Under the pieces are notes generated by a model. That model saw only the letters and a program-made list of their open reading frames with translations. It searched no databases and was not told the DNA's origin. Both the position numbers and the translations under genes were made by a program. DNA of 32,165 nucleotides. Origin: an uncultured Lachnospiraceae bacterium (lineage in GTDB: Bacteria; Bacillota; Clostridia; Lachnospirales; Lachnospiraceae). Location of the stretch: NCBI GenBank assembly GCA_900318375.1, contig ONKG01000023.1:1-32165 (forward strand). Reading direction: 5' to 3'. Positions within the stretch are counted from its first letter, which is position 1. Each line of letters starts with the position of its first letter. This document shows positions 2,384 to 25,254 of the stretch, piece by piece.

Positions 2384-2606
2384 ATTTCACCGCCTCTTTT
2401 TCTCGATATTAAATATCCTTAACAGTGGATTCTTAGAATTCTTCTTGCTAATCCGGACAGGTAAGTTGGTACGAAATCACTCCAAGGATTATAACTATTA
2501 TTATGGGAAGTCCTCAGCCATTTATTTTACTGGCTGCAGGCAGATAGTATTAATTAACATGTAACCGTAGCCTGACCAAAGAGCGTAATGATATTTTTCA
2601 CACAAT

Positions 2607-2981
2607 TTAGTGTATGTGATTTAATAATGCGTTGATTCGTTCTACAGGAAATACATCGGGAATAATCTCAATTCGGTACCTGCTCTTTGGAAGCTCCTTC
2701 ATTCCGGTAATAGACATGTACAGTTCAACTGCCTTTTCATCAACAGTAATGATGCCTCCGCCTGCCCAGTGCCTGTCTTCACCGTTTTTCTTTACTCCTG
2801 AAATCCAGTACTCTTCCTGTGTTTCGACATCGATATAATTACTGTATTCCCCGCGGTGTCTCTGGAAGGCATGGTCATTGAAGTAGACCATCTTTCCGGA
2901 ATGGGATTCTTTTACAAAACCAATCCATGCCGGACCATTGTCGTTCCAGCCAGTTTTCAGTTCTATATATCTGAGTTCCAT
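2607..2981 (-). CDS. Small conserved hypothetical protein (124 aa)
   Basis: This is a compact soluble protein with no signal peptide or membrane segment. It is rich in Trp, Tyr and Gly (ELKTGWNDNGPAWIG near the N-terminus, then EEYWISGVKKNGEDRHWAGGG). I recall similar short proteins in Clostridia and Bacilli, some carrying an implausible enzyme name in databases. No catalytic motif is visible, so I assign no function. The ATG is preceded by GAGAG. It sits 95 bp downstream of the HNH nuclease gene. A degenerate copy of its first ~18 codons lies at 5584-5640, beyond the DUF6155-like gene, so two relatives of this gene once bracketed the HNH/DUF6155 pair. Confidence 0.75.
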   Translation of the reverse strand: MELRYIELKTGWNDNGPAWIGFVKESHSGKMVYFNDHAFQRHRGEYSNYIDVETQEEYWISGVKKNGEDRHWAGGGIITVDEKAVELYMSITGMKELPKSRYRIEIIPDVFPVERINALLNHIH

Positions 2982-3076
2982 GATTACTCTCGATTCATTT
3001 TCCTTCTTTATAGACTTTTCTTCAGTGAGAGAATCTGTTCCTTTTTATTGTGTCCTCTCAAATCACCGGATACTGT

Positions 3077-4240
3077 TCAAAAATCCCACACTTCATATCC
3101 CTGCCGTCTCGCCGAGTCATATACCGGCTGCATGTTCTTCTGCAGGATATTGTAAAAAATCTCTCTGGAATTGCCTTTCCGGTAAAGTTCCTGTCCTGCC
3201 CAGATGGAGTGCAGGTTATCCCGATAACAAGCTTCAAAGCGCTTATGGATTTCCGGCTTTTCATGGATGTAACCGTAAAGGATATACTGGTTCGATGCAA
3301 AGCGCTCAAAGAATGGATTCCAGCGGGGAAGGCGGTTGCTCTTGGAGGAATTCAGGGAAGAGTCCATGGGCATAAGGTTCCAGAGCTCATCATTCATCAC
3401 GAAAGACCAGGGGACAAAATGATCTACATCATATTCTCCCTGCTGGATCTTCTCGTTTGTAAAGACATCCCGAATCTCCGTCAAATCCAGGATTCCTTTC
3501 CAGAGGTTTCTGACCTTCCCCAGCTTGCGTATCTTTTCGTCCATGGGAGCCAGCTTATAGACCAGTCCGGGTACCTCAGGATTATTGTTCTGTAGCCATT
3601 TGACCTTTTCATACTGAATCCATCCGAGGATCGACACGGTATTATCTTTGATCATTTCAATCCAGTCGGGATGAAAAATCACCTGTTTTTTCAGCTTACT
3701 GCTGTCTCCCAGAATATAAGGGAGAGGCATGACCTGCTCATTGATTTTCCTGATATAAGCTGTCATCCTTACAATACTGCCCCAGTCTGCTGTCTCTCCT
3801 GTTTTCAGGAAGAATCCGGCTAGCGCACGGTAAGGAACCATGTTTGTGAGCTGTTCCTTGTACTTCTTCAGTTCCGGATTGTATTTGGCAATTTCGTTTT
3901 TGATTTCCACACGGGAAGCATTTGCAGGGAGACTGCTCAACTCACTCAGCAGTAAAATTGCCCGCTCCAGACCGTCTCCGACACTCCCGTCACTTTTCAA
4001 ACCACTCAGATGAACATGAAATTCGCGCACAGAATACCAGGCATTGGCGATCATCTCGTCAATGATGGCATCAAATGTGGTTTCTGTGATATTTTCCGAG
4101 ATCAGCCGCACGATGGCTTCTAGCCAATAGAACTTATAACAATACGAAGGATCCTTCATCATCTGGGAGAAGGCCTCGATGTCGAGGGTGTTATAATAGC
4201 GGCCGTCGATTTGAAGAGGATAATGTGTTGCATCTTTCAT
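3077..4240 (-). CDS. HNH endonuclease domain protein
   Basis: The 387-residue protein ends in a beta-beta-alpha metal (HNH) nuclease module. The motif DVDHFVPW gives D273 and catalytic H274, followed by N283 or N288 and by N297 in SLNSSKSNRLP. This spacing fits the Cas9/HNH_4-like class. The N-terminal ~250 residues are mostly helical and unrecognised, and would presumably give target recognition. The family cleaves DNA, often in restriction or mobile-element contexts; the substrate here is unknown. The ATG has only a weak AAG-type ribosome site. The gene lies 31 bp downstream of the DUF6155-like gene, so the two are probably co-transcribed. No methyltransferase or Cas partner is nearby. Confidence 0.85.
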   Translation of the reverse strand: MKDATHYPLQIDGRYYNTLDIEAFSQMMKDPSYCYKFYWLEAIVRLISENITETTFDAIIDEMIANAWYSVREFHVHLSGLKSDGSVGDGLERAILLLSELSSLPANASRVEIKNEIAKYNPELKKYKEQLTNMVPYRALAGFFLKTGETADWGSIVRMTAYIRKINEQVMPLPYILGDSSKLKKQVIFHPDWIEMIKDNTVSILGWIQYEKVKWLQNNNPEVPGLVYKLAPMDEKIRKLGKVRNLWKGILDLTEIRDVFTNEKIQQGEYDVDHFVPWSFVMNDELWNLMPMDSSLNSSKSNRLPRWNPFFERFASNQYILYGYIHEKPEIHKRFEACYRDNLHSIWAGQELYRKGNSREIFYNILQKNMQPVYDSARRQGYEVWDF

Positions 4241-4271
4241 AGTTATATTCTTATAAAGATTCTTTGGAATC

Positions 4272-5510
4272 CTACAGTTTCGTGATAATCTGCTTCCTTC
4301 TCTTTGCAGCAGTATAAATATCCTTCATCTGTTTCTTCACTCCTGAACCGAGAAAAACATTCATGGTTCCTAGCAGTCCGTCTGTGATAATGACACCTTT
4401 GAACGGCAGCAGGGTCGCATCGATCATGACCGGAAGGGAATGATAATAATACATTTCCTCAAAGCTGGACTTGATTCCACGAACCTGATAGACACTTTCA
4501 TCATCCAGTGAAATAAGGATTCCCCCGTTCTTCAGATTTCGCTCCAGAACAAAACGTCCGCTGATGCAGCGCTCCCAGCTTTTTAGGATTGCCTGATGTT
4601 CCAGCGGGAGGTCGGAGCCATGTGCCGCAAGGTACTCTCCAATCAGGGAGGTATCACTCCATGCGGCTTCCGCAATCTCTTTGACAGTGCCCGGATCCAG
4701 GCTCTTTTTTGCACTCAGATTCTTTAACTTATTGATGTGCAATTTCCCGTTTACAAAATCCAGGAAAGGGAAGAATATCTGATAAAAAAGATCTCCATCC
4801 TCCGGAGGCAGAACATCCGCTGAATCCGTGATGAGGGCAGGCTCCGGGATGGCAGGTTCCTGCGATGTGTCCGAAGGTGCGGACAATGAAAATCTTTCAG
4901 CTGCTTCAATTACAGCCGCTTCCTTTCCCGCTTCACTCGCGCTGTGCCTCCACCGGATCGTGCAATAAGTATCATTCATACTCCTGTGAAAGCCGGCCTC
5001 TCCCAGGCCAAAATCCCTTCCTATTTCAGCAAGCCGATCCTCAAACCTCAAAGCAAGTTTGTTTCCAAGCTCCGGATCCTCAATGGCATTCATATCCTTT
5101 GCCACAGACTGGAACATGCGCTCTACACCGCTGTAGAGACTGGAAGGAATACCACGATAATGCTCTATGATTTCCATTCCATTTTCGATATAAGCAAGCT
5201 TCAGTTCCAGGACACTCGCAATCCCGGGACAAGCTTTCTCAAAATCTTCTATCACTGCCTTAGCAGCAGGAAGTCCTAACCGAGCCTTCCCTTTTTTGGT
5301 AAAAAAACAATCATGAAGCCGGTCTATTGCATCGTCAAGGAGAGCTTCCTCAAACTCATTCCCGGCAAAACGAACATTGAGATAGTTCGCTGCATCCGGA
5401 CACGATTTATAGATTCCTTCCAAAAGAGCAGACAGATCTTCCTTTGTACAGCCTTTCAGTTCTTTCCTCATTTGTGCTGCCGTTAGTTTCCTGACTTTGA
5501 TTCCTGCCAC
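4272..5510 (-). CDS. DUF6155-like N-terminus fused to an unrecognised C-terminal domain
   Basis: Residues 1-150 match my recollection of DUF6155: helical, with a KELKGCTKEDLSALL-type start, the FFTKKGKARLG segment, then a VLELKLAYIENG helix. A Ser/Ala/Pro/Asp-rich linker (about 205-235) joins this to a second domain (about 237-412). That domain has NKLKNLSAKK and a beta-rich end containing LPVMIDATLLPFKGVIITDGLL, which resembles the C-terminal part of some SEC-C-associated proteins but lacks a zinc motif. No catalytic residues are evident. GTG is chosen as the start because AGGAG lies 5 bp upstream. The gene is upstream of the HNH nuclease by 31 bp, so it could be a regulator or partner of that enzyme (inference). 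Confidence 0.7.
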   Translation of the reverse strand: MAGIKVRKLTAAQMRKELKGCTKEDLSALLEGIYKSCPDAANYLNVRFAGNEFEEALLDDAIDRLHDCFFTKKGKARLGLPAAKAVIEDFEKACPGIASVLELKLAYIENGMEIIEHYRGIPSSLYSGVERMFQSVAKDMNAIEDPELGNKLALRFEDRLAEIGRDFGLGEAGFHRSMNDTYCTIRWRHSASEAGKEAAVIEAAERFSLSAPSDTSQEPAIPEPALITDSADVLPPEDGDLFYQIFFPFLDFVNGKLHINKLKNLSAKKSLDPGTVKEIAEAAWSDTSLIGEYLAAHGSDLPLEHQAILKSWERCISGRFVLERNLKNGGILISLDDESVYQVRGIKSSFEEMYYYHSLPVMIDATLLPFKGVIITDGLLGTMNVFLGSGVKKQMKDIYTAAKRRKQIITKL

Positions 5511-5668: not shown

Positions 5669-6613
5669 TCATAAACCGGCTTCCTTTTGTGCTGTAGAAG
5701 ATCCATCCAGATAGCTCCTCAGGGAATCCAGTCTGCTCAGGGTATCATTGTAGCCGAGCCAATACAGGTCCCCGAGTTTATTCATGTCCCTTTCCAGACG
5801 ACCGACAGTTACTTTTTGAGAGGGGGCGATCACAAAGATCCTCCCCTGCTCTTCTAGCTTCAGAATCTCCTCACACTGGTGATTATAGGCGCGGCTGCTG
5901 TTGGCAAGGCGGCGGGCAAATTCCGGATATCTGTGGTATGCCTGAAACCTGTGCCTTCTCTTCGAAATCTTTTTGCGGTACTCCGGCTCCCGCGTACGGA
6001 CCACCACGATTTTTTCATAGCCTTCGTGGAGTGCCCATCTGTAAGGAATCCTGCAGCTGCAGCCGCCATCCAGGCAGGGCCTTCCGTCCACATAGACCAT
6101 AGGGGAGATGTAAGGCATGGAGGCCGAAGCCTTGATAGCACTGAAAATATCTCTGCATTTTCCCTTCTCGAAATAAGCCGTTTTTCCTGTCGTGCAGTCC
6201 GTGGCAACCGCCACAAAACGCCTTTGGGGAGAAAAGAAGGTTTTTTCATCGAAAGGCTCTATTGCGTTATAGTCATTGAAAAGAAAGTCCATCCGGATCG
6301 GACTGTGAGCGTGGGCGAGCGCGCCGCGTCCCACATAGTCCGTGTAATGCCTGTAGGTGAGATTGGCCCTTGCCGACCTTCCGATCTGCCCTGCAGCATA
6401 GTTGAAGCCTGCAAGCGCTCCGGCACTGGTGCCGATCGTGCAGGCAAAGTTGAGGTTATTTTCCATAAGAGCATCCAGGACGCCCTGGTTGTACAGTCCC
6501 CGGAAGGCACCGCCCTCCACGACAATGCAGCCGGGTGTAATCGATTTATCTGCATGTCCGTAAGGAATTTTGCTGAGTTCTCTGTAAGTCTTGATTGTAT
6601 GTTCTTTATTCAC
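5669..6613 (-). CDS. Patatin-like phospholipase family protein
   Basis: A serine acyl hydrolase with the Ser-Asp dyad of the patatin/RssA family. The oxyanion-hole loop is GGAFRGLY (34-41), the nucleophile S63 sits in GTSAG (61-65), and D182 is in the DGG motif. Family members hydrolyse phospholipids or other acyl esters. The 314-residue length is typical for the bacterial YjjU-like group. There is no signal peptide, so it should be cytoplasmic. The GTG start follows the TAA of the DUF503 gene with no gap, which suggests translational coupling. It ends a compact unit with the DUF503 protein and the lipoprotein; the physiological substrate is unknown. Confidence 0.9.
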   Translation of the reverse strand: MNKEHTIKTYRELSKIPYGHADKSITPGCIVVEGGAFRGLYNQGVLDALMENNLNFACTIGTSAGALAGFNYAAGQIGRSARANLTYRHYTDYVGRGALAHAHSPIRMDFLFNDYNAIEPFDEKTFFSPQRRFVAVATDCTTGKTAYFEKGKCRDIFSAIKASASMPYISPMVYVDGRPCLDGGCSCRIPYRWALHEGYEKIVVVRTREPEYRKKISKRRHRFQAYHRYPEFARRLANSSRAYNHQCEEILKLEEQGRIFVIAPSQKVTVGRLERDMNKLGDLYWLGYNDTLSRLDSLRSYLDGSSTAQKEAGL

Positions 6614-6895
6614 TTATCGAATTTCCCGTTCTTCATCTATGATTTCCGCATCCATATTCTCCTCCACAAAGAGGGAAATATCTTCCATCAGGCTGTCCGC
6701 CATAGCATTATGCGGAACAATGGCCGCAACACCAATCACGATGATATGATACGTGTCCTGCTCATCAATCTCCGCGGCCGATACATGATATCGGTTCCGG
6801 AGTTTCGCGATGAGGCTCTTTACTATACTTCGTTTTTCTTTAAGGCTGTGGACCCAGGGGGCGTAAAGCCTGAAAGTCATGGCTGCTATTCTCAT
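6614..6895 (-). CDS. DUF503 (YlxP-like) protein
   Basis: The 93-residue protein has the family hallmarks: a beta strand followed by HSLKEKRSIVKSLIAKLRNRY (residues about 16-36), then an alternating strand/helix pattern with an acidic C-terminus. Length equals the family norm. YlxP-like proteins are usually found near translation genes such as rbfA and are proposed to assist ribosome function, but the biochemical role is unsettled. Here that context is absent. Its ATG overlaps the stop of the upstream lipoprotein gene by 4 bp and its stop abuts the patatin start, so the three form one transcription unit. Confidence 0.88.
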   Translation of the reverse strand: MRIAAMTFRLYAPWVHSLKEKRSIVKSLIAKLRNRYHVSAAEIDEQDTYHIIVIGVAAIVPHNAMADSLMEDISLFVEENMDAEIIDEEREIR

Positions 6896-7803
6896 TTTTC
6901 ACCAATATCAAATACAAAGACTTCATGGATTTCTTCGTTATAACCGTCATAAAATCCTTTTGGCATGCCGAGCACAATGCGGGCGCCGCGGTTATAGAGG
7001 AGCAGAAAGCGATTGTTGTCCCCATCAAAACTCAGTCCCTCGATCTCTCCCTGCCTGGTCACCTCGTCAAATGTTTTTTCGAGGATCACCTTACCGGTCG
7101 ATTTATCTTCGCTGATTTCAATCCGATACATGTGGTCCGGCTCATCCGCATCTGCGTCACCATCGTCACAAGTCACATAAAGGTTTCCGCCATAATAAGC
7201 AACACCCTGGATCCACCCGGGCGCGGGATCCATGCGCAGCCTGCCTTTGTAGTCGCCGTTTTTCAAATTATACATGTAAAGATACTCGCTGGATTCATCA
7301 TCGATCCATGAGCACATATAAACAGTTTCGGAATCAGGATCAACAGCGATCCCTGAGCATTCACCCTGACCTGTGTCCGCCCGAAAGGGGAATACCCTCT
7401 TGAGCTCCAGCGTATCCCCGTCATAGACAGCAACCTGTATGTTCTTCCCTTCTCCATCCATAAAATACTCAACGCCCAGGTACAGTTCATTCTGCCAGAC
7501 GTCAATGTCACCGATATGATTGACCTCAAGATCAAAGCTGTCAAAAGGGGCTGTGTTTTCAGCCACCACATTCCAGTCCCGGTCGTATTTCGTCAGGGTG
7601 GTCGAGCCGCTGACCCAAAAATAATCATCCTCTACACAGATTCCCTGCCGCCCGTTCACCTGATAAATATCTTTTAGAGTATAGGCATGGCCGGGAACCC
7701 CCGTTTCCTCTGAACCTTGTTTTTTCCCGCATCCGCACACACTGATACCTGCCGCAAGGATGAGAAGGAAAACAAGTACTTTTGACTTCACAGTATGGAC
7801 CAT
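6892..7803 (-). CDS. Secreted lipoprotein with predicted beta-propeller fold
   Basis: The N-terminus is a lipoprotein signal: a VKSK basic patch, a hydrophobic core (VLVFLLILAAGISV), then a Cys-Gly-Cys lipobox at about residues 23-25. The mature part has repeated strand patterns with phrases such as GICVEDDYFWVSG, GDIDVWQNELYLGVEY, GIAVDPDSETVYMCSW and EIEGLSFDGDNNRFLLLY. These are typical of YncE/NHL/SdiA-regulated-type propellers. It is probably anchored outside the membrane; the ligand is unknown. Acidic loops (DDGDADADEPD) might bind metal. AAGGAG lies 8 bp before the ATG. It is the first gene of the unit with DUF503 and patatin. Confidence 0.82.
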   Translation of the reverse strand: MVHTVKSKVLVFLLILAAGISVCGCGKKQGSEETGVPGHAYTLKDIYQVNGRQGICVEDDYFWVSGSTTLTKYDRDWNVVAENTAPFDSFDLEVNHIGDIDVWQNELYLGVEYFMDGEGKNIQVAVYDGDTLELKRVFPFRADTGQGECSGIAVDPDSETVYMCSWIDDESSEYLYMYNLKNGDYKGRLRMDPAPGWIQGVAYYGGNLYVTCDDGDADADEPDHMYRIEISEDKSTGKVILEKTFDEVTRQGEIEGLSFDGDNNRFLLLYNRGARIVLGMPKGFYDGYNEEIHEVFVFDIGEK

Positions 7804-7883
7804 ATTCCGGACTCCTTGTCACATTATTTCGAGGACAGACACAAAAGGACCGCCCCCATGGCTGAACCATGGCTGTCATAATC

Positions 7884-9327: not shown

Positions 9328-10113
9328 TCAAGGCAATTCGACTGCAATCTCGGAGATTGCGACCAGTACAGCTTGTCCGCTGATGGCGATTCTTCCGTTT
9401 CCAAGCATCTCGCAGTGCAGGTAACCTCCCCGTTTGGAGGCCTGATAAGCATAGATTTGTGATTTGCCGAGTTTCCTTGACCAGTAATCCGCAATCTGGC
9501 AGTGGGCTGCGCCGCAGACAGGATCCTCCGCAATGGAAAGCTTGGGACAGAAACTCCTTGAAACGCAGTCGGTTTCCTTTCCAGCAGCCGTTACGTTCTG
9601 AATGCGGCCTTCGATTTCCATGAGTAGTGCCTGATCAGGCTGCATGGACCGCACCTGGTCTTCTGTCTCAAATACACAGACCAGATCCAACCCAAGCACG
9701 GCTTTGGATGGGCGGACTCCAAAGGCCTGCTCCATCTTGTCCGTGACTGGGATCTCCTTTAATTCATAGGTCGGGAAGTCCATCTCATAGAAACTTCCTT
9801 TTTTCTTAACCGTAAGGACACCGGAGAGAGTGTTAAATCGTACCGTATCGCTGTCCGGCTCGTAATAATTCAGGATTACAAAGGACGAGGCCAGTGTCGC
9901 GTGTCCGCACAGTTCCACCTCTGTTCCGGGGGTGAACCAGCGCAGATGATAGCCTGCCTCTTCTTTGACGATAAAAGCCGTCTCGGAAAGATTGTTTTCC
10001 ATGGCCAGCTTCATCATGGATTCTTCCGACGGCCAGCTTTCCATCACGCACACAGCTGCCGGATTTCCGGAAAAGGGCTTGTTTGAAAACGCATCAACAA
10101 TATACTGCTTCAT
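9328..10113 (-). CDS. PhzF family isomerase/epimerase-like protein
   Basis: A two-lobed PhzF-fold protein. It shows the N-terminal VDAFSNKPFSGNPAAV motif, the catalytic glutamate E44 in NLSETAFI, FTPGTEVELCGHAT (60-73) and the second-half motif EDPVCGAAH (196-204). PhzF enzymes isomerise small hydroxylated or amino-acid substrates; outside phenazine producers the substrate is usually unknown, and no phenazine genes are present. I start at ATG 10113 (MKQYIVDAF) rather than seven codons upstream because AAGGAG lies about 6 bp before it. The resulting length is 261. It lies between direct repeats carrying a lipoprotein gene, so it may have moved or been duplicated with them. Confidence 0.92.
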   Translation of the reverse strand: MKQYIVDAFSNKPFSGNPAAVCVMESWPSEESMMKLAMENNLSETAFIVKEEAGYHLRWFTPGTEVELCGHATLASSFVILNYYEPDSDTVRFNTLSGVLTVKKKGSFYEMDFPTYELKEIPVTDKMEQAFGVRPSKAVLGLDLVCVFETEDQVRSMQPDQALLMEIEGRIQNVTAAGKETDCVSRSFCPKLSIAEDPVCGAAHCQIADYWSRKLGKSQIYAYQASKRGGYLHCEMLGNGRIAISGQAVLVAISEIAVELP

Positions 10114-10139
10114 GGACTTCTCCTTTTTTGTCATAGTCT

Positions 10140-10415
10140 CTATTTATGCGCAGTGCACACATACAATGAACACGGCGTCAGGTCCTGATTATATGTATAT
10201 TCAATTATTGTATTGTCATCCCAAAGTTCTTTAGTAATTCGATAAACGGGACTAGCTTTAGAAGGCTCAGGGGATTCTTCTGTCTGTTCTTCACTCCAAG
10301 AATTGTCATAATCTGATTTTTCTGTTCCTAATGGATTAAATCCGGCAAAAGAACAGGCAGATAGGCAGATGCAAAAAAACGGAACACTTATTATTGATAA
10401 TATTTTTTTGAACAT
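10140..10415 (-). CDS. Small lipoprotein, 3' end replaced
   Basis: The signal peptide (FKKILSIISVPFFCICLSAC) ends in a lipobox with Cys at about residue 20. It is followed by a Ser/Glu/Pro-rich spacer and VYRITKELWDDNTIIEYTYNQD. After that point, similarity to the paralogue at 8793-9246 ends and the frame closes with an unrelated 14-residue tail rich in Cys. It is thus probably a 5' fragment of the ancestral gene that still has signals: AAGGA about 8 bp before the ATG. It may be expressed as a ~91-residue lipoprotein or be non-functional. Function is unknown. The phzF-like gene starts 27 bp downstream. Confidence 0.55.
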   Translation of the reverse strand: MFKKILSIISVPFFCICLSACSFAGFNPLGTEKSDYDNSWSEEQTEESPEPSKASPVYRITKELWDDNTIIEYTYNQDLTPCSLYVCTAHK

Positions 10416-10467
10416 CACATGCTTCCTTCAATTTCTTAACAAAAAACAATGCTGTCAAGTAGAGTTC
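10184..10467. repeat. Direct repeat copy 2 flanking the phzF-like gene
   Basis: Partner of 9006-9298, about 1.17 kb away in the same orientation. It contains the 5' part of the lipoprotein gene and about 50 bp of upstream DNA, including a conserved CTTGACA on the minus strand that could be a -35 element. The partner on the other side of phzF keeps the full-length but mutated gene. Confidence 0.85.
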
Positions 10468-10607
10468 GCCCTTTTTTTCTTTACGCAGAGTGAAGGACAC
10501 TTATTCATTTCCAAAGGCAATCTTATGTCTTCTTTATACTATTATTCTATCTATCACTCATCTTATGCTCTATGAATAATGCAAGAGAAGTCATGATATA
10601 TTTTCCA

Positions 10608-11399
10608 CTATAAATATCCCAGAATCTCACCGATCCGGTCATGAAAGACTATGTCTGCCTTGCCTTCCATCCTGGTCTTCCCTTTATTAATGATGATCAG
10701 ATAATTTCCATGGTACATATGGGCCAGTTGTGCCGCAGAGCCCACCTCCAAAGAGGTTCCTCCGATGATCAGGCAGTCGGCGCGGTTGATCAGGTCAATG
10801 GCGCCCTGATAGGCTTTTTCAGGGAGGAATTCCCCGTAGAGGGTGACATCAGGGCGAACCAGTTTCCCGCAGACGGGACATCTCGGAATTGTATCGGGGC
10901 TCTCAAAAATGAAATCTTCATCGTACTCCCTGCCGCAGGAAACACAGTGATTTGAGCGTATCGTCCCGTGGATCTCATAGACATTTTTGCTGCCGGCTTT
11001 CTGGTGCAGGCCATCGATATTCTGTGTGATCACACCCTCGAGCCTGCCTGTGCGCTCGAGCTCCGCCAGCTTGTAGTGGGCGGTGTTGGGCTCTGCCCCG
11101 CGGGCATCCAGGTTTTTTCGATAGTAGGAAAAGAACACTTCCGGCTTCTTGTGAAGGCAGTCATAGCTCAGCAGATACTCCGGTTTATATTTGGCAAAAC
11201 TTTTCTCTTTCTTTCGGTAGAGGCCGTTTTTGCTGCGGAAATCCGGGATCCCGCTCTCAGTCGATACTCCTGCTCCGCCAAGAAAAGCGACATGGCGGCA
11301 GGAAGCCAGGATCTCCCCGAAGGCATCGAGTTTCTGCTCATGCGTCATGCGGTTGAAGTAATTGTGCTTTTCCTTTTCCGAGCTGAATTCGGTTCTCAT
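10608..11399 (-). CDS. cobB: Sirtuin NAD-dependent protein deacylase
   Basis: A Sir2-family enzyme that removes acyl groups from lysines using NAD, releasing nicotinamide and O-acyl-ADP-ribose. All core motifs are present: GAGVSTESGIPDFRS (42-56), TQNIDGLH (125-132), the general base H144 in EIHG, and a zinc site of C152, C155, C174 and C177. GTSLEV lies at 214-219. The 263-residue length is standard. The ATG follows AGAGG. It is the last gene of the module with Nudix, PnuC and NMN adenylyltransferase, which supply or process its cosubstrate and products. A gap of about 160 bp with tandem repeats separates it from the Nudix gene, so it may also have its own transcript. Confidence 0.95.
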   Translation of the reverse strand: MRTEFSSEKEKHNYFNRMTHEQKLDAFGEILASCRHVAFLGGAGVSTESGIPDFRSKNGLYRKKEKSFAKYKPEYLLSYDCLHKKPEVFFSYYRKNLDARGAEPNTAHYKLAELERTGRLEGVITQNIDGLHQKAGSKNVYEIHGTIRSNHCVSCGREYDEDFIFESPDTIPRCPVCGKLVRPDVTLYGEFLPEKAYQGAIDLINRADCLIIGGTSLEVGSAAQLAHMYHGNYLIIINKGKTRMEGKADIVFHDRIGEILGYL

Positions 11400-11479
11400 T
11401 TTTTCCTCTGCTTAATCCAGTCCTATTCTCATCATGTGCCTGATTCAGTTCTCTTCTTAGACTCCTTAGATTCTGGTTC

Positions 11480-11562
11480 ATTCAGTACGCATTCCATACT
11501 CTGATTTATTCGATTCGCACTTCATACTCTGGTCATTCGGTCCGCATTTAATTCTCTGGTTT
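11480..11562. repeat. 28-bp tandem repeat ending at the Nudix stop codon
   Basis: Three degenerate units of 28, 27 and 28 bp (11480-11507, 11508-11534, 11535-11562) share the pattern ATTC-N5-CGCA-N7-CTCTGGTTT. A more decayed part may extend leftwards to about 11430. The last unit overlaps the Nudix TAA at 11561-11563. No function is evident. Confidence 0.75.
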
Positions 11563-11986
11563 AGCGGCGGGTCGGCAGCGGATACATCATGGCAATGTTG
11601 ATGATATGAGCAATATTCTGCTCTCCCGCAAAGCGTTCTCTGTCGGTGTAGTCTTCGCTGAGCGGCAGCCAGAGGAGAGGGTTTGTCTCCTCGCGCAGCT
11701 CGACGTCTTCGTCCAGCCTGCCGACATAAATCTCCAGGATGAAATCCTGATGGTAATAGGTCAGGTCCATCAGCCGGTACAGGCAGATGTGCTGACGGCT
11801 GATGCCGGTTTCCTCCTGCAGTTCACGGTAGGCAGCTGCTTCCGAAGTCTCTCCGGGCTCCACCTTGCCGCCGACGAAATTGAGCCTGCCTTTGAAGGGT
11901 TCTTTTTTTCGTTTGCAGAAGAGGACCTTGTCCTTTTCCCTGTTAAAGACCACGATGCAGTTCATGACCTTTTCCGGTTTTTTCAT
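11561..11986 (-). CDS. Nudix hydrolase
   Basis: The Nudix box is intact: GGKVEPGETSEAAAYRELQEETGI (residues 39-62), fitting GX5EX7REUXEEXGU. It should cleave a nucleoside diphosphate linked to another moiety. The short 141-residue form and N-terminus (NCIVVFNREKDKVLFCKRKK) resemble MutT/8-oxo-dGTPase-like members. Its position between pnuC and the sirtuin makes ADP-ribose, an O-acyl-ADP-ribose or an NAD breakdown product a plausible substrate (inference). I choose ATG 11986 because GGAG lies 5 bp upstream; a GTG two codons earlier would sit on top of that site. Confidence 0.93.
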   Translation of the reverse strand: MKKPEKVMNCIVVFNREKDKVLFCKRKKEPFKGRLNFVGGKVEPGETSEAAAYRELQEETGISRQHICLYRLMDLTYYHQDFILEIYVGRLDEDVELREETNPLLWLPLSEDYTDRERFAGEQNIAHIINIAMMYPLPTRR

Positions 11987-12043
11987 GCACACTCCTCATG
12001 GAAATACAGTTTCAAACCTGACCATCTCGATTTGTTAATCTGT

Positions 12044-12802
12044 TTATTCGTTTTCCAGATTTCTTGTACTGTTGAGTCTGGTCCAGTTGACGAGGCCTAT
12101 AACGGCCATAATCAGGTAAATAGATCTCTTGGTCAGATAGACGGCATCAAAATGGGCTATGTACATACCGACAGATACAATATCCGTGATGATCCACCAG
12201 ACATATTGTTCCCGATAACGCAGGAGTTCGAGGATCGTTGCAATGATTCCGATGCTGAGTGTAAAGGCATCAAACCAGGCTACTTCTCCTCCAATACGGA
12301 CCAGAATCATATGATAAACCAGAGCGCTGCCAACTACGATTGCCGCACAAGCGGCATTTTTGCCTGCTGTCAGATGTTTTGCTTTTGTCTTCCGGGTAAT
12401 CTGCCGGTCACGGTGTTTTGCCCAGTAATACCAGGAGATAAAGTTCATGGGAATATAGAACAGAATCTCCAGGGCGGCTGTTCCCCAGATATGCCAATAA
12501 ACCAGATAGATTGCGTAAACAACAGTATTGACTGTAGCAAAAAGGAAATTGCTGATATTGGCTTTTGCTGTAAAAAAGATACAGATGACACCGCAGACTG
12601 CACTGATGAAATTAATGACTGTCAGCCATGCAGGATTCCCGTCTGCCGCTCCCGTTGTAAAACCGAGAACCATGGCACGGGCAGCGATTATAATCATGAC
12701 CGCGCCCATCAGATACTCATACCACTTTAGTTCCTGAAAACTTTTTTTCAGGTTTTCTGCCCTGTTTAACTTTTCTGTTTTCAATTGTTGCTCCGTATTC
12801 AT
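12044..12802 (-). CDS. pnuC: PnuC nicotinamide riboside transporter
   Basis: A membrane protein of about 252 residues with seven or so hydrophobic segments and the PnuC signature region (NISNFLFATVNTVVYAIYLVYWHIWG, then EILFYIPMNFISWYYWAKHR). The C-terminal half repeats the pattern (REQYVWWIITDIVSVGMYI). PnuC proteins move nicotinamide riboside across the cytoplasmic membrane by facilitated diffusion, with intracellular phosphorylation trapping the substrate. ATG 12802 is preferred to an upstream TTG, which has no ribosome site; the site for the ATG is itself weak (AAAGAAG). It lies directly downstream of the NMN adenylyltransferase gene (72 bp), matching a salvage role. No nicotinamide riboside kinase gene is visible in the window. 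Confidence 0.95.
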   Translation of the reverse strand: MNTEQQLKTEKLNRAENLKKSFQELKWYEYLMGAVMIIIAARAMVLGFTTGAADGNPAWLTVINFISAVCGVICIFFTAKANISNFLFATVNTVVYAIYLVYWHIWGTAALEILFYIPMNFISWYYWAKHRDRQITRKTKAKHLTAGKNAACAAIVVGSALVYHMILVRIGGEVAWFDAFTLSIGIIATILELLRYREQYVWWIITDIVSVGMYIAHFDAVYLTKRSIYLIMAVIGLVNWTRLNSTRNLENE

Positions 12803-12874
12803 CTTCTTTGCCCGTCTCAAAGGATTTTATATCTTCACATGATTCTCAGTAATCAGAAGATGCTTTATTTCTTT

Positions 12875-13378
12875 TTAAGTAATCCATTTCGTCCTGTCAT
12901 TTTCTGCCGTCATTGCACGGATCTGCGTTCCGCTGATCGGGTAATGGATTCTCCGAATATCTACAAGGCGATGAACTGCTTCAGGATATGCCCTGCTGAA
13001 ATAATCCCCGTAGCTCTCTTCACTGCTATACACAGCATCGAGCCGGTTTCCCAACAGTTTCCTGACAAGAGGAGTTTCCGCTTCCCAGTCTTCCGATCCG
13101 TCCGGTTTACGCAATGAAGAAATATCAATGACAGAGGGGATGACATTTGCAGTCCGGGATGCGTCCCTGCAGATTTTTCTCATCTGCAGAATCCTCTGCT
13201 CTGCGGACAGCCAGTCTTCGGGGTAATCCTGCAGAATCTGCTCTTCGTCCGCGCCTCCCAGAAACAGAATGACATAGACGGTTTCACATTCCTGTGCAGC
13301 TGTTTCCACACAAAACCTGTGACCTTTATGAAAGGGCAGGAATTTCCCGCCATACATTCCGATTTTGTATTGTTTCAT
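12875..13378 (-). CDS. NadR-type nicotinamide-nucleotide adenylyltransferase
   Basis: A single-domain nucleotidyltransferase of 167 residues. The ATP-binding motif is GMYGGKFLPFHKGH (7-20) with H17-x-x-H20, and the second motif is PISGTQIR (147-154). The stretch DAVYSSEESYGDYFSR (114-129) is characteristic of the adenylyltransferase domain of NadR, which makes NAD from NMN and ATP. The helix-turn-helix and the nicotinamide riboside kinase domain of full NadR are absent. Start codon ATG; no clear Shine-Dalgarno site is visible, so translation may depend on coupling to the radical SAM gene 39 bp upstream. Confidence 0.9.
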   Translation of the reverse strand: MKQYKIGMYGGKFLPFHKGHRFCVETAAQECETVYVILFLGGADEEQILQDYPEDWLSAEQRILQMRKICRDASRTANVIPSVIDISSLRKPDGSEDWEAETPLVRKLLGNRLDAVYSSEESYGDYFSRAYPEAVHRLVDIRRIHYPISGTQIRAMTAENDRTKWIT

Positions 13379-13417
13379 TTTTTAAGGAATATCATCATTT
13401 TTAATATGACTTGCTTT

Positions 13418-14326
13418 CTACTTGGCAGGATTGATTGTTCTTCCCCCGAATCCGGCAAGGAGTTCATTATTGGCTGAGTAAACCAACTGTCTTACATAGG
13501 GAACAGAAGATTGACCAGGGACACGATAATAAAAACGCACCCATCCTAATGCGGACAGGTAATCCCCGCTGGAGCAGGAGCAACAATCGTGATCATGGAA
13601 TCTGTTCCAGATCCGGAAACGTTCATCTTCTTCCGGATACAGACCGGCCGGATTGGCAAACTGCTCTCTGCAGTATTCATTAGCTGGAATCAGACCGATA
13701 AAAGACACATTTTGCACTCCGGTCTGACCCGCCATTTCAAGATAATCCGCAATCCCGTCGAGTGAGTGGACGCCGTCTTTTTGCAGTATACAGTTTAAAA
13801 CCACCTTTCCCGGTTCTTGAATCTCTTTCAGCAGATTCTTCAGTTCCTGCCGGGAAGGGGTCCGAGCTCCCATCAACTGCCTGTTCTCAGCATCGTCCAC
13901 TCTGTGCCTGCTGATATGAATACTGTACAGATGATTCTGTGCCTTCAGGGAAAAAAGTCTTTCCAGTATAATTCCACTGGTCGCCAGATCTATTTCCACT
14001 TCCGATCCCATGATATCGTAGGTGGTCTGGATTGCTTCATCCAACAGGTCTGGAAAAAGCAAGGGTTCTCCGCCTGTAAAGGACACCCCGCACACATAGT
14101 CTCTGACCATCCGCAAAGTCTTCTCAAAAGCTGCAGCAGAAATCGTATTTCCACCGACTTTCTTCCCCGGATTTACGCAGAATGGACACGAACATGGGCA
14201 CATGTCTGTCAGATTCACATACAGCCATAATTTACCATCTGTTTTAGGTTCATAGGGTTGACCGTCCAGCGCACAGTAATAGTCCTTTATGAAGAGGGAA
14301 TCCCCTCCGATCTGTATCGTTTTCAT
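13418..14326 (-). CDS. Radical SAM enzyme of unknown substrate
   Basis: The 4Fe-4S/SAM motif CX3CX2C is present (C43, C47, C50 in MCPCSCPFC, with an extra Cys at 45), followed by GGEP (85-88) and later TIM-barrel strands. Near the C-terminus is a Cys cluster (HDCCSCSSGDY, about 252-262) that might bind an auxiliary cluster, although a full SPASM pattern is not visible. Length about 302. I do not recognise the subfamily. It lies immediately upstream of the NMN adenylyltransferase and PnuC genes and downstream of a 95-aa gene with a strong ribosome site. A role in modifying a peptide, a nucleotide or NAD-related metabolite is conceivable but unproven. ATG 14326 is preferred over a GTG two codons upstream. 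Confidence 0.88.
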   Translation of the reverse strand: MKTIQIGGDSLFIKDYYCALDGQPYEPKTDGKLWLYVNLTDMCPCSCPFCVNPGKKVGGNTISAAAFEKTLRMVRDYVCGVSFTGGEPLLFPDLLDEAIQTTYDIMGSEVEIDLATSGIILERLFSLKAQNHLYSIHISRHRVDDAENRQLMGARTPSRQELKNLLKEIQEPGKVVLNCILQKDGVHSLDGIADYLEMAGQTGVQNVSFIGLIPANEYCREQFANPAGLYPEEDERFRIWNRFHDHDCCSCSSGDYLSALGWVRFYYRVPGQSSVPYVRQLVYSANNELLAGFGGRTINPAK

Positions 14327-14365
14327 ATTCACTCAAAATTATTAGATGTCTCTTTCTCCCGCCTT

Positions 14366-14653
14366 TCAGCAGTGAGGATAACAAACCTGCTCCAGGCGCT
14401 TTCTTTTATGCATATTTTCTTCATATTCACCGGGTCTGCCTGTGAATTCATCCGCATGTTGAATCAAATACTGCAGTCGAGCCTCAGCTCCCATCATCAA
14501 TCTCATGGTAATCCCATCAGCCATACCGCTTCCTTTAGCCAGAGCAATAATTGCAGCTAATGAAGTCTTCACCAGACCTACAGAATAAGGATTCAACGGA
14601 TCCACCATTGTGAGAAGCTGCTGGAGATAACTCAGAAAATTATTTTTAGACAT
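14366..14653 (-). CDS. Unrecognised 95-aa protein upstream of the radical SAM gene
   Basis: I do not recognise this protein. It is helical (SYLQQLLTMVDPLN, then a small-residue helix SLAAIIALAKGSGMADG) and ends in a charged segment with a Cys-rich tip (EQVCYPHC). It has no signal peptide. A strong AGAGGAG precedes the ATG, so it is very likely expressed. It lies 39 bp upstream of the radical SAM gene and 67 bp downstream of the DUF2225-like gene, inside the putative NAD operon. Small proteins next to radical SAM enzymes may be substrates or partners; the two C-terminal cysteines make that worth testing, but there is no direct evidence. Confidence 0.7.
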   Translation of the reverse strand: MSKNNFLSYLQQLLTMVDPLNPYSVGLVKTSLAAIIALAKGSGMADGITMRLMMGAEARLQYLIQHADEFTGRPGEYEENMHKRKRLEQVCYPHC

Positions 14654-14720
14654 TTAGTTCTCCTCTCGTTTGAAACACATTCCTCTATGATTAGTATTCG
14701 ATTAGTATTCTGTAGAAGAA

Positions 14721-15371
14721 TCATCGACCGCCTGTTGCATCCGACACACGGTAGCAATCTGCATCTCTTTCTTTCGCCTTTTTGATCTGAAAGTCCAGAA
14801 TCTGGTTCAGGAGATCATCGTAAAAACGGACAGACGCATACTGATCGACCAGTTCATCGAACAGTCCTGCCCTCCTCATCAAATCCGCTTTCATCAGCTG
14901 GAGATTGTTCTTTTGCTGATGACCGCTCTCAATCAGCTTGTCTGCCAAAGATATTGCAATCTTTCTGCAGCGCTTTGCATTCTCAACATCCTGTTTGTCA
15001 TCACATGCCCAGGCGGCATGTAAAACAGCAAAAAACGCATCCTCATCCTCCCTGCCCTGCAAACAGATCAGATAGTACTTGTAAAATCTCTTTGCCAGAT
15101 CAGATGCAAAAAATAGGCCGTCACATGTCTGATATTGTTCTGACCGAAGCCACCTTTTTGACACACGGCGTTTATCCGAGATTCTTCCTGAAATATACCC
15201 GCACTTGGGACATTCCTGTATCCATGAGTGCATTGTGCTCCTCTGCATCTCCGCCGGCCGCAGATCCAGATCCGGTCCTCCGCCAAATGTATTTGTGCTC
15301 GCAAGCACGTTGTATTCATTGACTGCATGGCAGATCGCGCATGTAACTTTCTCTTGCATAAACGTCGTCAT
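14721..15371 (-). CDS. DUF2225-like zinc-ribbon protein
   Basis: Two CxxC pairs near the N-terminus (C11/C14 and C54/C57, in VTCAICHAVNEY and QECPKCGYIS) form a predicted zinc ribbon, as in DUF2225. The rest is helical with a TPR-like feel (residues about 80-205). Function of the family is unknown. I choose ATG 15371 (MTTFMQEKV) because an AGGAG lies 10 bp upstream and the residues before it derive from a tandem-repeat leader; ATG 15359 is an alternative. The gene lies in the middle of the DUF434 to sirtuin set, all on one strand with short gaps except the 215-bp leader upstream of it. Confidence 0.7.
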   Translation of the reverse strand: MTTFMQEKVTCAICHAVNEYNVLASTNTFGGGPDLDLRPAEMQRSTMHSWIQECPKCGYISGRISDKRRVSKRWLRSEQYQTCDGLFFASDLAKRFYKYYLICLQGREDEDAFFAVLHAAWACDDKQDVENAKRCRKIAISLADKLIESGHQQKNNLQLMKADLMRRAGLFDELVDQYASVRFYDDLLNQILDFQIKKAKERDADCYRVSDATGGR

Positions 15372-15418
15372 GGCAATTCGTTCTCCTATCAAGATTCTTC
15401 CAATGCTTTTCCGTATTC

Positions 15419-15478
15419 GTACAGGATTCATTTGTACATGATTTATTCACACATGATTTATTCGTACAGGATTCATAC
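15419..15478. repeat. 15-bp tandem repeat in the leader of the DUF2225-like gene
   Basis: Four consecutive 15-bp units (15419-15433, 15434-15448, 15449-15463, 15464-15478) follow the pattern GTACAGGATTCATTT with a few changes. On the minus strand one frame reads a pentapeptide repeat Ser-Cys-(Thr/Val)-Asn-(Lys/Glu), but no convincing gene contains it. It lies about 48 bp upstream of the chosen start of the downstream gene. Confidence 0.8.
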
Positions 15479-15512
15479 ATGTACAGGGCTTCCACATTCA
15501 GCATGGCTCTTA

Positions 15513-15542
15513 TTCCCGGGGATTTCTGTCGTTACCCGGGAA
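15513..15542. other. 8-bp-stem hairpin between DUF434 and DUF2225-like genes
   Basis: TTCCCGGG (15513-15520) and CCCGGGAA (15535-15542) can pair around a 14-nt loop. On the transcribed (minus) strand no U-tract follows, so it is not a standard intrinsic terminator. It could be a processing or stability element separating the two genes. Confidence 0.5.
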
Positions 15543-15586
15543 AAAGCACCCAACCCTTTCGTTTATATATGACTGGAACCAACTGA

Positions 15587-16294
15587 CTATACATATACCT
15601 GAAGTGCTTCTTTTTGCTTACGCTTCAGGCATTCCGCTGTCAGATTGACCCAGCTTATGCAATGGTCCAGGATGATGGAATCCGAAGTGATCACAAACTC
15701 TTTGTCATACAACTCACGGTCAACTTCCCTGAGAATCTGAATATCAAGTGCATAGGGGTATTTCTCGCCGATTTCCGCTATGCAGGTCTTCAGGCGCCCT
15801 GAGTTGGATACAGGCTGGTCGAGCAGTATATTGACTCTGCTGACTCCCACCTCCTGCAACAGTTCAAACAGTATGCGGATGGCGTCCTCTGTCTCCGTAA
15901 TCAACCGGTAAGTACCGCGGAGCGCCGCCAGATCCCGGATTGTTCCATCCATGCAGGAAAATAGAATGGAATCGCTGAGCAGAACTTCCAGGGTGATGAT
16001 TGTATTGAAACCGTCGATCCAGACCTCCCTGCCGGACATCGTTTGTGCTGTCATTGCAACCTGCTTCTTTTGTCTGTTCTCGATCTGCGCCTGCGTGGCA
16101 ACGCAGCGCATAATGGCAAGACGCTGGCGCTCCGAGAGCAGATAGTGATTTCCGACAAAGGTCGTGGACTGTTTCAGATCATACCCTTCATTAATGAGGT
16201 AGCAGACATGGCGGGCGGCAGTCCGCATTATTTCCAGTGCCTGCGGTGAGAAGTTCTTCACATCCTCCGGCACAAAACCTCGCTTTGCATCCAT
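15587..16294 (-). CDS. DUF434/DUF5616-like protein, possible NYN/PIN-type nuclease
   Basis: Residues about 15-70 fit DUF434: FSPQALEIMRTAARHVCYLINEGY and a VGNHYLLSERQRLAIMR segment. Residues 90-210 form an alternating strand/helix domain with acidic clusters: VWIDGFN (D94, N97), D116, LLDQPVSNSGRL (D159) and ITSDSIILD (203-210). That layout resembles NYN/PIN-like RNases, but this is my structural inference, and the family has no settled function. ATG with AGGAG 8 bp upstream. It appears to be the first gene of the putative NAD module, with an AT-rich stretch upstream (16415-16495) that probably holds the promoter. Confidence 0.75.
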   Translation of the reverse strand: MDAKRGFVPEDVKNFSPQALEIMRTAARHVCYLINEGYDLKQSTTFVGNHYLLSERQRLAIMRCVATQAQIENRQKKQVAMTAQTMSGREVWIDGFNTIITLEVLLSDSILFSCMDGTIRDLAALRGTYRLITETEDAIRILFELLQEVGVSRVNILLDQPVSNSGRLKTCIAEIGEKYPYALDIQILREVDRELYDKEFVITSDSIILDHCISWVNLTAECLKRKQKEALQVYV

Positions 16295-18354: not shown

Positions 18355-18894
18355 TCAGCCTTTAGGATCGCTTAGTTTTTGCATGTAGATCGCGAACTGT
18401 TCCTGGTATTCTGATTCCTCTTTTCTGACAAGATCTCTGTAGTAGGAATCGTCAATAGCCTTCTGAGCCCCGGTCCATCTCAACTGCTGTAAAGCCTGCA
18501 TACTCTTTACTGCTGTCTGCGTAAATACAGGACCGATCTGCAGCAGAGCAAGGGCATCTTCCGCTTTCAAGAATCCGCTGCTGATGATCCCCAGGGTATC
18601 ATAGAGAGTGTCATTTGCGACAGGTCCGATCACAATATCCGCTGTCAGAGTATCTTCAGAACGCCGGTTTCTGGAAATATAGTCAAACCAGGCTCTTTCC
18701 CTGGAAAAACTTATGACATTTAAGCCGGTAAGATCCAGCTCATATTCATTCACCACATATCCTTTATATGCCCACCTGCAGGCGAATTCCCTGTCAGGTG
18801 TGAGATAGAATCCCTGACCGAAATCAGCGTTTTTTCTTCCCCGGTGTAGATCCGGCTTCCTGATTTCCTCTTTTCCAGCATGGTAAAGCTTCAT
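18355..18894 (-). CDS. DUF3990 protein, ADP-ribosyltransferase-like fold
   Basis: The start LYHAGKEEIRKPDLHRGRKNADFGQGFYLTPDREFACRWA is the DUF3990 signature: a Tyr-His pair, then an FGxGFYLT motif and a conserved A-x-x-W-A. The family is placed in the ADP-ribosyltransferase clan, so it may transfer ADP-ribose from NAD to a target, or be a catalytically changed relative. The EDTLTADIVIGPVANDT segment follows, typical of the family. Many DUF3990 genes sit beside DUF3791 genes; none is visible here. AAAGGGGG lies before the ATG, which is 12 bp after the ABC ATPase stop. Toxin, defence or regulatory roles are all possible. Confidence 0.85.
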   Translation of the reverse strand: MKLYHAGKEEIRKPDLHRGRKNADFGQGFYLTPDREFACRWAYKGYVVNEYELDLTGLNVISFSRERAWFDYISRNRRSEDTLTADIVIGPVANDTLYDTLGIISSGFLKAEDALALLQIGPVFTQTAVKSMQALQQLRWTGAQKAIDDSYYRDLVRKEESEYQEQFAIYMQKLSDPKG

Positions 18895-24105: not shown

Positions 24106-25254
24106 TCAGCGCTCGTCGATTTCAATAATGTGCTCCGCGTGTTCAGGCAGGCTCCTGAGCCTGGCCGCGATGGACTCGGGCACGATGTAGTAAGAGCCGG
24201 TCTCCTCGAGGGGGACCCAGACAAGCTCCTCCGCGACCCCTCTCGCGGTGACGGAATGGCATTCGAGATGCTCGAGGGCGGGGCTGTCCTTCATGAGGTA
24301 ATAGACGCCAAGTTCGTGGATATGTGTGCCCGTGACCTTGCCGTCAAAAAACTGTTCCTGGAAGAAGAGGAAGCGGTCGATCTCCAGGTCGACTCCGATC
24401 TCCTCCCGGACTTCGCGTATGACAGTCTCCTCAGTGGTCTCGTTGAAGTGCACTCTCCCGCCGACGGTGTAATAATAGGGTTCCTCTTCGTTGTGCATCA
24501 AAAGGAGTTTTCCGTCGCGAATGATGATGGCTCCGACGCGGAAATTGAAGGTGCCCCGGCTCATACGAAAGGTCAGATCCGTATGGGCAGAAGCAGTTTT
24601 TCCGCTTTCGTCTCTATTTTCAATTCTGTTCCTTATTGCGCTTCCGTCTTGATTCCCGCATCCGTCTCTTTTCTCGCTTCTGTCCTTTTTTTGACTGTCT
24701 TCCGGAAATCTGTACTCGTAATTCAGTTTGTCATAGACCTTATCCCCGACTTTGAGGCCGGCGGGTTCTGTGGAGGCCAGCTGCATGCCGGCTTTCTCCA
24801 TGGCCTTTGCGGACCCGATATTGGGAGCGGCACACCAGGCCTTGATGCAGGGGATTTTTTCCACCCTGGAAAGGTAGCGTAGGACCGCAAGAAGAGATTC
24901 TCCGGCAATGCCCTTTCCCCACAGGCCGCGTCTTACGCTGATGCCCACCTCAATGGTTCCGGCCTTAGGATCATACTCATAGGCACCGATCGTTCCGGCA
25001 AAAGACGCCCCCGGCAAATTCTCCGGCTTCTCTTTCAACTCGATCACCCATCCATAAAAAAAGGGCTTGTCATAGGAATCAATGAATTCGCTGACTGAGG
25101 CAGCTGCCATGCCGGGCGTCGCATAAGGATTCCAGCCGGAGTATTCAAACATCTTCTCGTCTGTTCCGAAATATTGGTGGAGAAGAGGTGCATCTTCTGA
25201 CCGGTACCTGCGAAGACGCAGGCGGCCCGTCTCAAGTTCCCTTGTACCGTTCAT
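24106..25254 (-). CDS. GNAT acetyltransferase-Nudix hydrolase fusion
   Basis: Residues 1-180 are a RimJ/RimL-type GNAT domain: LETGRLRLRRYRSEDAPLL at the start and the acetyl-CoA loop RRGLWGKGIAGES (108-120), then NIGSAKAMEKAGM. Residues 235-382 are a Nudix domain with an intact box GGRVHFNETTEETVIREVREEIGV (265-288). A polar linker (about 185-225) rich in Lys, Arg, Asp, Gly and Asn joins them. Each domain family is common on its own; together they suggest linked detoxification or modification of a small molecule, which is unproven. AAAGGA lies rather far before the ATG. No neighbour overlaps. Confidence 0.93.
   Translation of the reverse strand: MNGTRELETGRLRLRRYRSEDAPLLHQYFGTDEKMFEYSGWNPYATPGMAAASVSEFIDSYDKPFFYGWVIELKEKPENLPGASFAGTIGAYEYDPKAGTIEVGISVRRGLWGKGIAGESLLAVLRYLSRVEKIPCIKAWCAAPNIGSAKAMEKAGMQLASTEPAGLKVGDKVYDKLNYEYRFPEDSQKKDRSEKRDGCGNQDGSAIRNRIENRDESGKTASAHTDLTFRMSRGTFNFRVGAIIIRDGKLLLMHNEEEPYYYTVGGRVHFNETTEETVIREVREEIGVDLEIDRFLFFQEQFFDGKVTGTHIHELGVYYLMKDSPALEHLECHSVTARGVAEELVWVPLEETGSYYIVPESIAARLRSLPEHAEHIIEIDER

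Follow-up and report, generated by a model that had tools for sequence, protein, structure and literature searches.

The locus and its genes

The stretch analysed here, called the window, is a contig of 32,165 nucleotides from an uncultured Lachnospiraceae bacterium (ONKG01000023.1; the entire contig 155 of host assembly GCA_900318375.1, which comprises 3.93 Mb in 193 contigs and is 82% complete). Our subject is a gene in it for a radical S-adenosylmethionine (SAM) enzyme, its neighbour encoding a 95-residue protein (p95) that ends in cysteine, and the genes for salvage of nicotinamide adenine dinucleotide (NAD) that accompany them. Eight co-oriented open reading frames (ORFs), all on the minus strand from 16294 to 10608, were borne out in the order that a first-pass annotation of the sequence had given, with intergenic gaps in transcription order of 155, 67, 33, 39, 54, 51 and 161 bp:

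15587..16294, minus strand: DUF434 plus DUF5616 protein, probable native flank (PF18481 and PF04256 above cut-off)
14721..15431, minus strand: DUF2225-like zinc-ribbon protein (sub-threshold PF09986; zinc ribbon by eye)
14366..14653, minus strand: p95, 95 aa, C-terminal ..QVCYPHC; predicted substrate or partner of the radical SAM enzyme
13418..14332, minus strand: radical SAM enzyme, founder of the family studied (PF04055)
12875..13378, minus strand: NMNAT domain of NadR type without the kinase domain, 167 aa
12044..12820, minus strand: PnuC, nicotinamide riboside transporter (TIGR01528, 105.1 bits, cut-off 42.45; PF04973)
11561..11992, minus strand: Nudix hydrolase, probable native flank (PF00293)
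10608..11399, minus strand: SIR2/CobB-type NAD-dependent deacylase, probable native flank (NF001752, 281.2 bits, cut-off 221)

Pfam backed most of the earlier gene labels (matches to DUF434 plus DUF5616, radical SAM, CTP_transf_like, PnuC, NUDIX and SIR2), whereas the DUF2225 assignment is weak, with PF09986 scoring 16.3 bits against a cut-off of 21. The 95-residue gene had also been listed, but its C-terminal Cys beside the radical SAM enzyme, which we take as the main point, had been overlooked. Searches of Pfam, NCBIfam and PHROGs assigned p95 to no family within the limits used; its start codon is preceded by aggag. The NMNAT protein scored 51 bits against the full NadR model TIGR01526, short of the cut-off of 341, and its best solved structures were 9x6f (a nicotinamide-nucleotide adenylyltransferase) and 8x7f (NadR). 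Neither a tRNA nor an Rfam match reaching the gathering score was found in the window.

A rare radical SAM family with seven invariant cysteines

The family of the window enzyme was traced in 35 loci (the window and loci denoted by L numbers); some lie in bacterial genomes and one on a Prevotella plasmid, the others in huge phages or further viral contigs. A locus was admitted if the match covered most of its radical SAM ORF and the family motifs could be recognized by eye; L180, whose match covers residues 34–211 only, was kept on its motifs, and L194, repeat copies, L156 (a partial match) and rows with weaker matches were excluded. Carriers include the huge phages LR756502, LR756501 and LR745206, a Mageeibacillus assembly, two genomes of the host's genus, a genome from the class of the host in which the cluster is almost the same, and the Prevotella plasmid pE2-28 (L164), besides which a plasmid search returned no other plasmid. 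The window sequence alone recovered no relative in a first scan of genome contigs and viral contigs, and an alignment of window-type enzymes recovered none in viral contigs. With the host's own genome counted each time, the gene was present in 1 of 250 genomes sampled for the family, 2 of 391 for the class, 3 of 61 relatives and 1 of 397 genomes in a further family set, at the limits used; with such low counts it is not a common gene of the host's family.

Seven cysteines were invariant in all 34 full-length members: C45, C49 and C52 of the CX3CX2C motif, and C20, C181, C251 and C253. S141 and H143 were likewise invariant in 34 of 34. The conservation of the four extra cysteines suggests that they probably hold an auxiliary iron-sulfur cluster. 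The alignment leaves out L043, a viral contig in which the family gene is split over two reading frames (5941–6865) and adjoins a small gene that is open.

The enzyme is paired with a small protein ending in Cys

As controls we took 91 radical SAM loci with weaker matches (12 from one search and 79 among the matches listed in another; duplicates were kept and the family boundary is informal), with flanks of 6 kb as against about 10 kb for family loci. An immediate same-strand neighbour of 55–215 aa ending in Cys was present in 28 of the 35 family loci versus 1 of 91 controls, and in L056 and L175 the Cys-ended gene lies one gene away, which brings the count to 30 of 35. A first rule (same strand, at most 200 aa, within 1.4 kb) had given 23/28. 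As background, 4 of 318 other ORFs of 70–200 aa in 28 family loci end in Cys, a number that may include small genes one gene away. When close relatives (L142, L144, L146 and L038; L056 and L175; L037 and L140) were merged by eye on the tree, 26 of the resulting 30 groups had a Cys-ended gene. We regard the pairing of the radical SAM enzyme with a small Cys-ended protein as well supported.

All five small proteins found in bacteria (window, L173, L174, L056 and L175) end in Cys. G682, a genome of the host's genus, has two such loci: L174, with PnuC, full-length NadR, a 95-aa p95 homologue (42% identical) and the radical SAM enzyme, and L173, with a HemN-like radical SAM protein, a 92-aa homologue (32%) and the family enzyme. 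In L172, the sixth locus from bacteria, the enzyme lacks a small neighbour; a TIR protein together with an FtsK-type protein lies directly upstream (6462–7850). Small neighbours in phages also end in Cys, often in a Gly/Ser-rich tail of the form D-P/G-C-x-x-G-G-x-x-x-x-C. Of the 30 small proteins in the comparison, 17 carry another Cys close to the terminal one, from which 5 to 14 residues separate it. Cys-ended small genes stand in tandem before the family gene in L195 (4327–5018) and L199 (7371–7836); tandem copies, as known for peptide precursors, were counted in favour of a modification of p95.

Four pairs of small genes gave dN/dS values of 0.16–0.56 (dS saturated in two), p95 itself giving 0.21 against its L174 homologue (dS saturated), compared with 0.06–0.11 in three pairs of radical SAM genes (dS saturated in several of the gene pairs compared). 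The small genes thus appear to be under selection, looser than that on the enzyme. A gene beside the L165 peptide looked ADP-ribosyltransferase-like; this had no Pfam support and is not claimed.

NAD-salvage genes lie in many family loci, by two routes

NAD-salvage genes were sought at E 1e-4 in 28 family loci and the controls and at E 1e-5 in seven later loci, and Nudix-only matches (window, L164) were not counted. At least one such gene was present in 16 of 35 family loci (15 of 34 without the window) compared with 1 of 91 controls; with relatives merged as above, 12 of 30 groups had NAD genes. Two unrelated salvage routes occur beside the family enzyme. PnuC and NadR accompany it in L174, L056, L175, L036, L038, L040, L142, L144, L146 and L148. 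The window has PnuC and only an NMNAT domain, and L178 has NadR, the locus being cut there. NAMPT with NadM-Nudix is found in L039, L138, L179 and L199; in L179 they are joined by an NAD kinase and by a macro-domain match that lies right at the cut-off. Loci linked to NAD are present in both the bacterial and the viral branches of the tree. The first-pass annotation had made its operon depend on the unexplained genes accompanying pnuC and NMNAT genes in other genomes; this is what we found for the radical SAM and 95-residue genes, in L174, L056, L175 and several phages, but not for the DUF434 and DUF2225-like genes. The order p95–radical SAM–NMNAT–PnuC exceeds chance, because its parts recur together elsewhere.

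Across whole carrier records, PnuC was present in 9 of 18 and the NAPRTase family in 8 of 19; a CTP_transf_like domain occurred in 13 of 19, although some of these proteins are possibly not NMNATs. Other genes of NAD or ADP-ribose chemistry stand near the pair or the enzyme: PARG and an ADP-ribosylglycohydrolase near the pair in L174, annotated ADP-ribosylglycohydrolase and NUDIX genes near the enzyme on plasmid pE2-28, and, near the enzyme in L172, the TIR protein mentioned above. In L174 an McrC-type restriction component and a 465-aa protein without assignment (11361–13879) adjoin the PnuC–NadR–p95–radical SAM cluster. In L058 (Elusimicrobiales), counted among the controls and not in the family, radical SAM ORFs adjoin a NAMPT-like gene and a gene matching NadM-Nudix in part. 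We favour a tie to NAD since salvage genes are so much more frequent at family loci than at controls and since different routes occur in different branches; the pair may accordingly have a role in NAD metabolism.

A candidate peptide-modifying module

Our preferred reading, a tentative one with slightly less than even confidence, joins p95, the radical SAM enzyme, NMNAT and PnuC in a single module: the enzyme would modify the tail of p95 to give a product that works in NAD or ADP-ribose chemistry. The four proteins would act as one functional unit. PnuC would bring in nicotinamide riboside and NMNAT would convert nicotinamide mononucleotide (NMN) to NAD. The radical SAM enzyme, probably with a second iron-sulfur cluster held by C20, C181, C251 and C253, would act on the C-terminal tail of p95, which is putatively flexible, and the terminal Cys would most likely be the site of the reaction or its means. 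In NAD or ADP-ribose chemistry, modified p95 might then be, for instance, a cofactor carried on a peptide, an inhibitor or a scaffold. This reading is supported by the excess of Cys-ended neighbours over controls and the seven cysteines shared by all aligned members, as well as by the PARG and ADP-ribosylglycohydrolase genes of L174 and the annotated ADP-ribosylglycohydrolase and NUDIX genes of the plasmid, which place such chemistry near bacterial or plasmid copies. No ribosylnicotinamide kinase that would account for the supply of NMN was found in the window. The absence of a nicotinamide riboside kinase had been remarked on before, and it holds as far as one full-NadR query (E 0.01) of the 82% complete host assembly reaches, other kinds of kinase lying outside that query.

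If correct, this reading would define a class of radical SAM/peptide pair that is new, marked by a conserved Cys at the C terminus, present in huge phages and bacteria and linked to NAD supply through two unrelated routes of salvage. It would also link peptide modification with NAD metabolism, a field in which defences that deplete NAD, and the means by which phages counter them, are being actively studied. With about 95 and 300 residues, the two proteins are small.

Several observations weigh against this interpretation. No NAD-salvage gene lies nearby in 19 of the 35 loci. On the tree, each route requires at least 3 changes among the 16 NAD-linked rows, and shuffled labels often required as few (132 of 500 and 137 of 500 shuffles were as low as observed), so neither route is more clustered than shuffled labels. 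Five loci (L037, L140, L164, L172 and L180) have no small gene. Bacterial and phage small proteins showed no detectable homology in a profile comparison (probability 0.3%) and are alike in size, position and last residue only, which argues against a single origin. A RiPP recognition element (RRE; RiPP, ribosomally synthesized and post-translationally modified peptide) or SPASM/twitch domain was not matched in the window enzyme or that of L042 by Pfam at E 0.1, a search that distant versions could escape; some radical SAM RiPP systems do lack these domains. Finally, among solved structures with a name, viperins come closest, and their substrates are nucleotides rather than peptides.

Alternative explanations

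The pair might instead be a peptide-modifying system unrelated to NAD, with phages and genomic islands merely gathering salvage genes. We think this unlikely, although it survives best of the alternatives. The many loci without NAD genes fit it, as does phage LR756501, in which PnuC and NAPRTase genes lie at 425–431 kb, distant from both family radical SAM genes (138 and 488 kb). It accounts poorly for the excess of salvage genes over controls and for their occurrence by different routes in separate branches, and the bacterial contigs L174 and L056 also have PnuC and NadR beside the pair.

Nearly as probable, though still unlikely, is that the enzyme acts on NAD, NMN or another nucleotide in the manner of viperin, which acts on CTP, with the small protein as an electron or sulfur partner. 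With a family profile, the best named structures were viperin-like (7n7i, 1.1e-12), ahead of MoaA (3.8e-10), with four radical SAM structures without a functional name ranking between them; PADLOC pVip models match the window enzyme at 40 bits; S141 and H143 are invariant; and NAD genes are in the neighbourhood. However, the structural matches are restricted to the core domain, and the viperin model NF038283 (cut-off 180) gave only 28.6 bits for the window, 39.9 for L042, 23.1 for L174 and 36.7 for L164. The enzyme further differs from viperin and pVip in its four additional invariant cysteines and its paired small protein, and the tandem arrangement and varied tails of the small genes likewise speak against a simple partner role.

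We give marginally less credence to a bolder proposal, in which the Cys-ended protein, made by the ribosome, would serve the radical SAM enzyme as a scaffold for assembling a new cofactor or a compound derived from NAD, along a peptide-borne pathway common to huge phages and bacteria. Were this so, the phage product could be a form of NAD, or an NAD-protecting agent, that withstands the NAD-depleting defences of the host.

An RNA modification, with the small protein serving the reaction of a split RlmN-like enzyme that accompanies the pair in many phages, is highly improbable. The split enzyme is near the pair in L039, L042, L137, L138, L139, L179, L192, L193 and L195, L196 and L197, and by eye in L043; it consists of an N part of about 260 aa and a nearby ORF of 43–99 aa (at most 60 aa in 8 of 11) with a GAACGQL motif, an ORF that in L137 is fused to the radical SAM enzyme. 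The motif (ACGQL) is one that we take to be that of the RlmN methyl-cysteine, towards the C terminus. In L042 the gene resembles RlmN (7e-11 in the PDB; 78 bits in NCBIfam, cut-off 290); the small ORF with the ACGQL motif had no RlmN match in the PDB search. L199 has an RlmN-like N part 3 kb off, with no GAACGQL-type ORF found. Against an RNA role, an RlmN query found none in the PnuC/NadR phages L142, L144, L146, L148 and L178 or in the bacterial loci L172–L175, and L173 and plasmid locus L164 carry a HemN-like radical SAM gene beside the family enzyme instead (2941–4263 and 9888–11171, respectively; products 36% identical to each other). Matched along its length, the HemN-like protein of L173 scored 135.8 bits against the model of the STM4012 family (cut-off 380). 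No HemN-like partner was found in the viral contigs, and in two plasmid neighbourhoods of STM4012 no second gene of radical SAM type is listed.

Comparison with known systems

As in PqqE/PqqA and in the mycofactocin pair MftC/MftA, a small gene adjoins the radical SAM gene, here in tandem in two loci. The PqqE model TIGR02109 was also the best NCBIfam match of the window enzyme, yet with 53.2 bits of a required 381; for four members (the best 25 models listed for three of them), no listed NCBIfam model reached its cut-off. The tyrosine modified in mycofactocin is the C-terminal one. There, one radical SAM enzyme decarboxylates tyrosine and joins it to valine (PMC8326336). Unlike radical SAM RiPP systems, the family described here combines the absence of an RRE or SPASM match with a conserved terminal Cys and nearby NAD-salvage genes.

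Several phage loci here contain the same salvage enzymes as the known phage NAD genes (NAMPT, NadM-Nudix and NadR) and the NAD reconstitution pathways NARP1/NARP2. Such enzymes have been described for jumbo phages (PMC7824862), and the term radical SAM is absent from the main text of the phage NAD-system surveys PMC7824862 and PMC9503650. Vibrio phage phi-pp2 is recorded (PMC3468402) with NadM, NadR, PnuC and a moaA/nifB/pqqE family protein at separate places; Vibrio phages gave no match to three family radical SAM enzymes at E 1e-5. ADP-ribosylglycohydrolase systems with Nudix and vWA components (PMC9503650) resemble L174 and L164 in their ADP-ribosylglycohydrolase genes, and L056 and L175 hold a VWA-like/MoxR-like pair (labels by eye); section 3.8 of that survey mentions neither a radical SAM enzyme nor a Cys-ended protein. 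Within the portions of open-licence literature searched, no description of a radical SAM/Cys-ended-protein pairing with an NAD link was found. We rate the pairing as one of radical SAM/peptide kind with an unusual NAD link.

Cassette boundaries and neighbouring genes

We read PnuC, NMNAT, the radical SAM gene and p95, together with the DUF2225-like gene, as a cassette set between native genes. In L034, from another genome of the host's family, a Nudix gene directly follows DUF434 with no cassette (proteins 67% and 71% identical to those of the window), whereas 3.6 kb separates the two in the window. DUF434, recognized by its DUF5616 domain, was present in 17 of 200 sampled family genomes, the host's own included (16 over the cut-off), and p95, radical SAM, NMNAT or PnuC genes accompanied it in 0 of 15 other loci, some of whose contigs stop near the gene. 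On these cassette-free loci and the adjacency in L034, DUF434 was rejected as a member of the module. The DUF2225-like gene, found in its own genome only among 61 (E 1e-10), was probably carried along with the cassette and is not a conserved member. SIR2 was beside the cassette in no other locus among those read; like DUF434 and Nudix, it is probably a bystander of the core.

The five in-between genes have a GC content of 43–48% and a third-position value (GC3) of 40–51% (46.7% and 48.9% for the DUF2225-like gene), compared with 51–54% and 61–72% for DUF434, Nudix and SIR2. As a mark of the cassette this difference is no more than suggestive, because the window mean is 48.5% and the DUF3990 gene, outside the cassette, is also low (46.5% and 48.9%).

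Despite their shared orientation and short gaps, the proposal of the first-pass annotation that all eight genes form one NAD acquisition-and-use operon is the least credible of the readings considered, given the adjacency in L034, the composition of the flanks and their failure to recur with the core, which is confined to p95, the radical SAM enzyme, NMNAT and PnuC. No evidence was obtained for the nuclease that had been suggested as a further part.

Two archaeal loci have DUF434 homologues (33% identical) beside a different radical SAM gene of about 480 aa (L060, 4683–5348; L090, 2229–2894). Elsewhere in the window, the DUF3990 gene (18355–18894; PF13151, 121 bits), which we take to be ADP-ribosyltransferase-like, lies about 2 kb upstream of DUF434. 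A TmtA-like ATPase (PADLOC, 3.5e-45), an HNH_4 protein and a 412-aa protein without a Pfam family occupy 80–5510, possibly a defence island, and a Nudix domain is fused to a GNAT acetyltransferase at 24106–25254.

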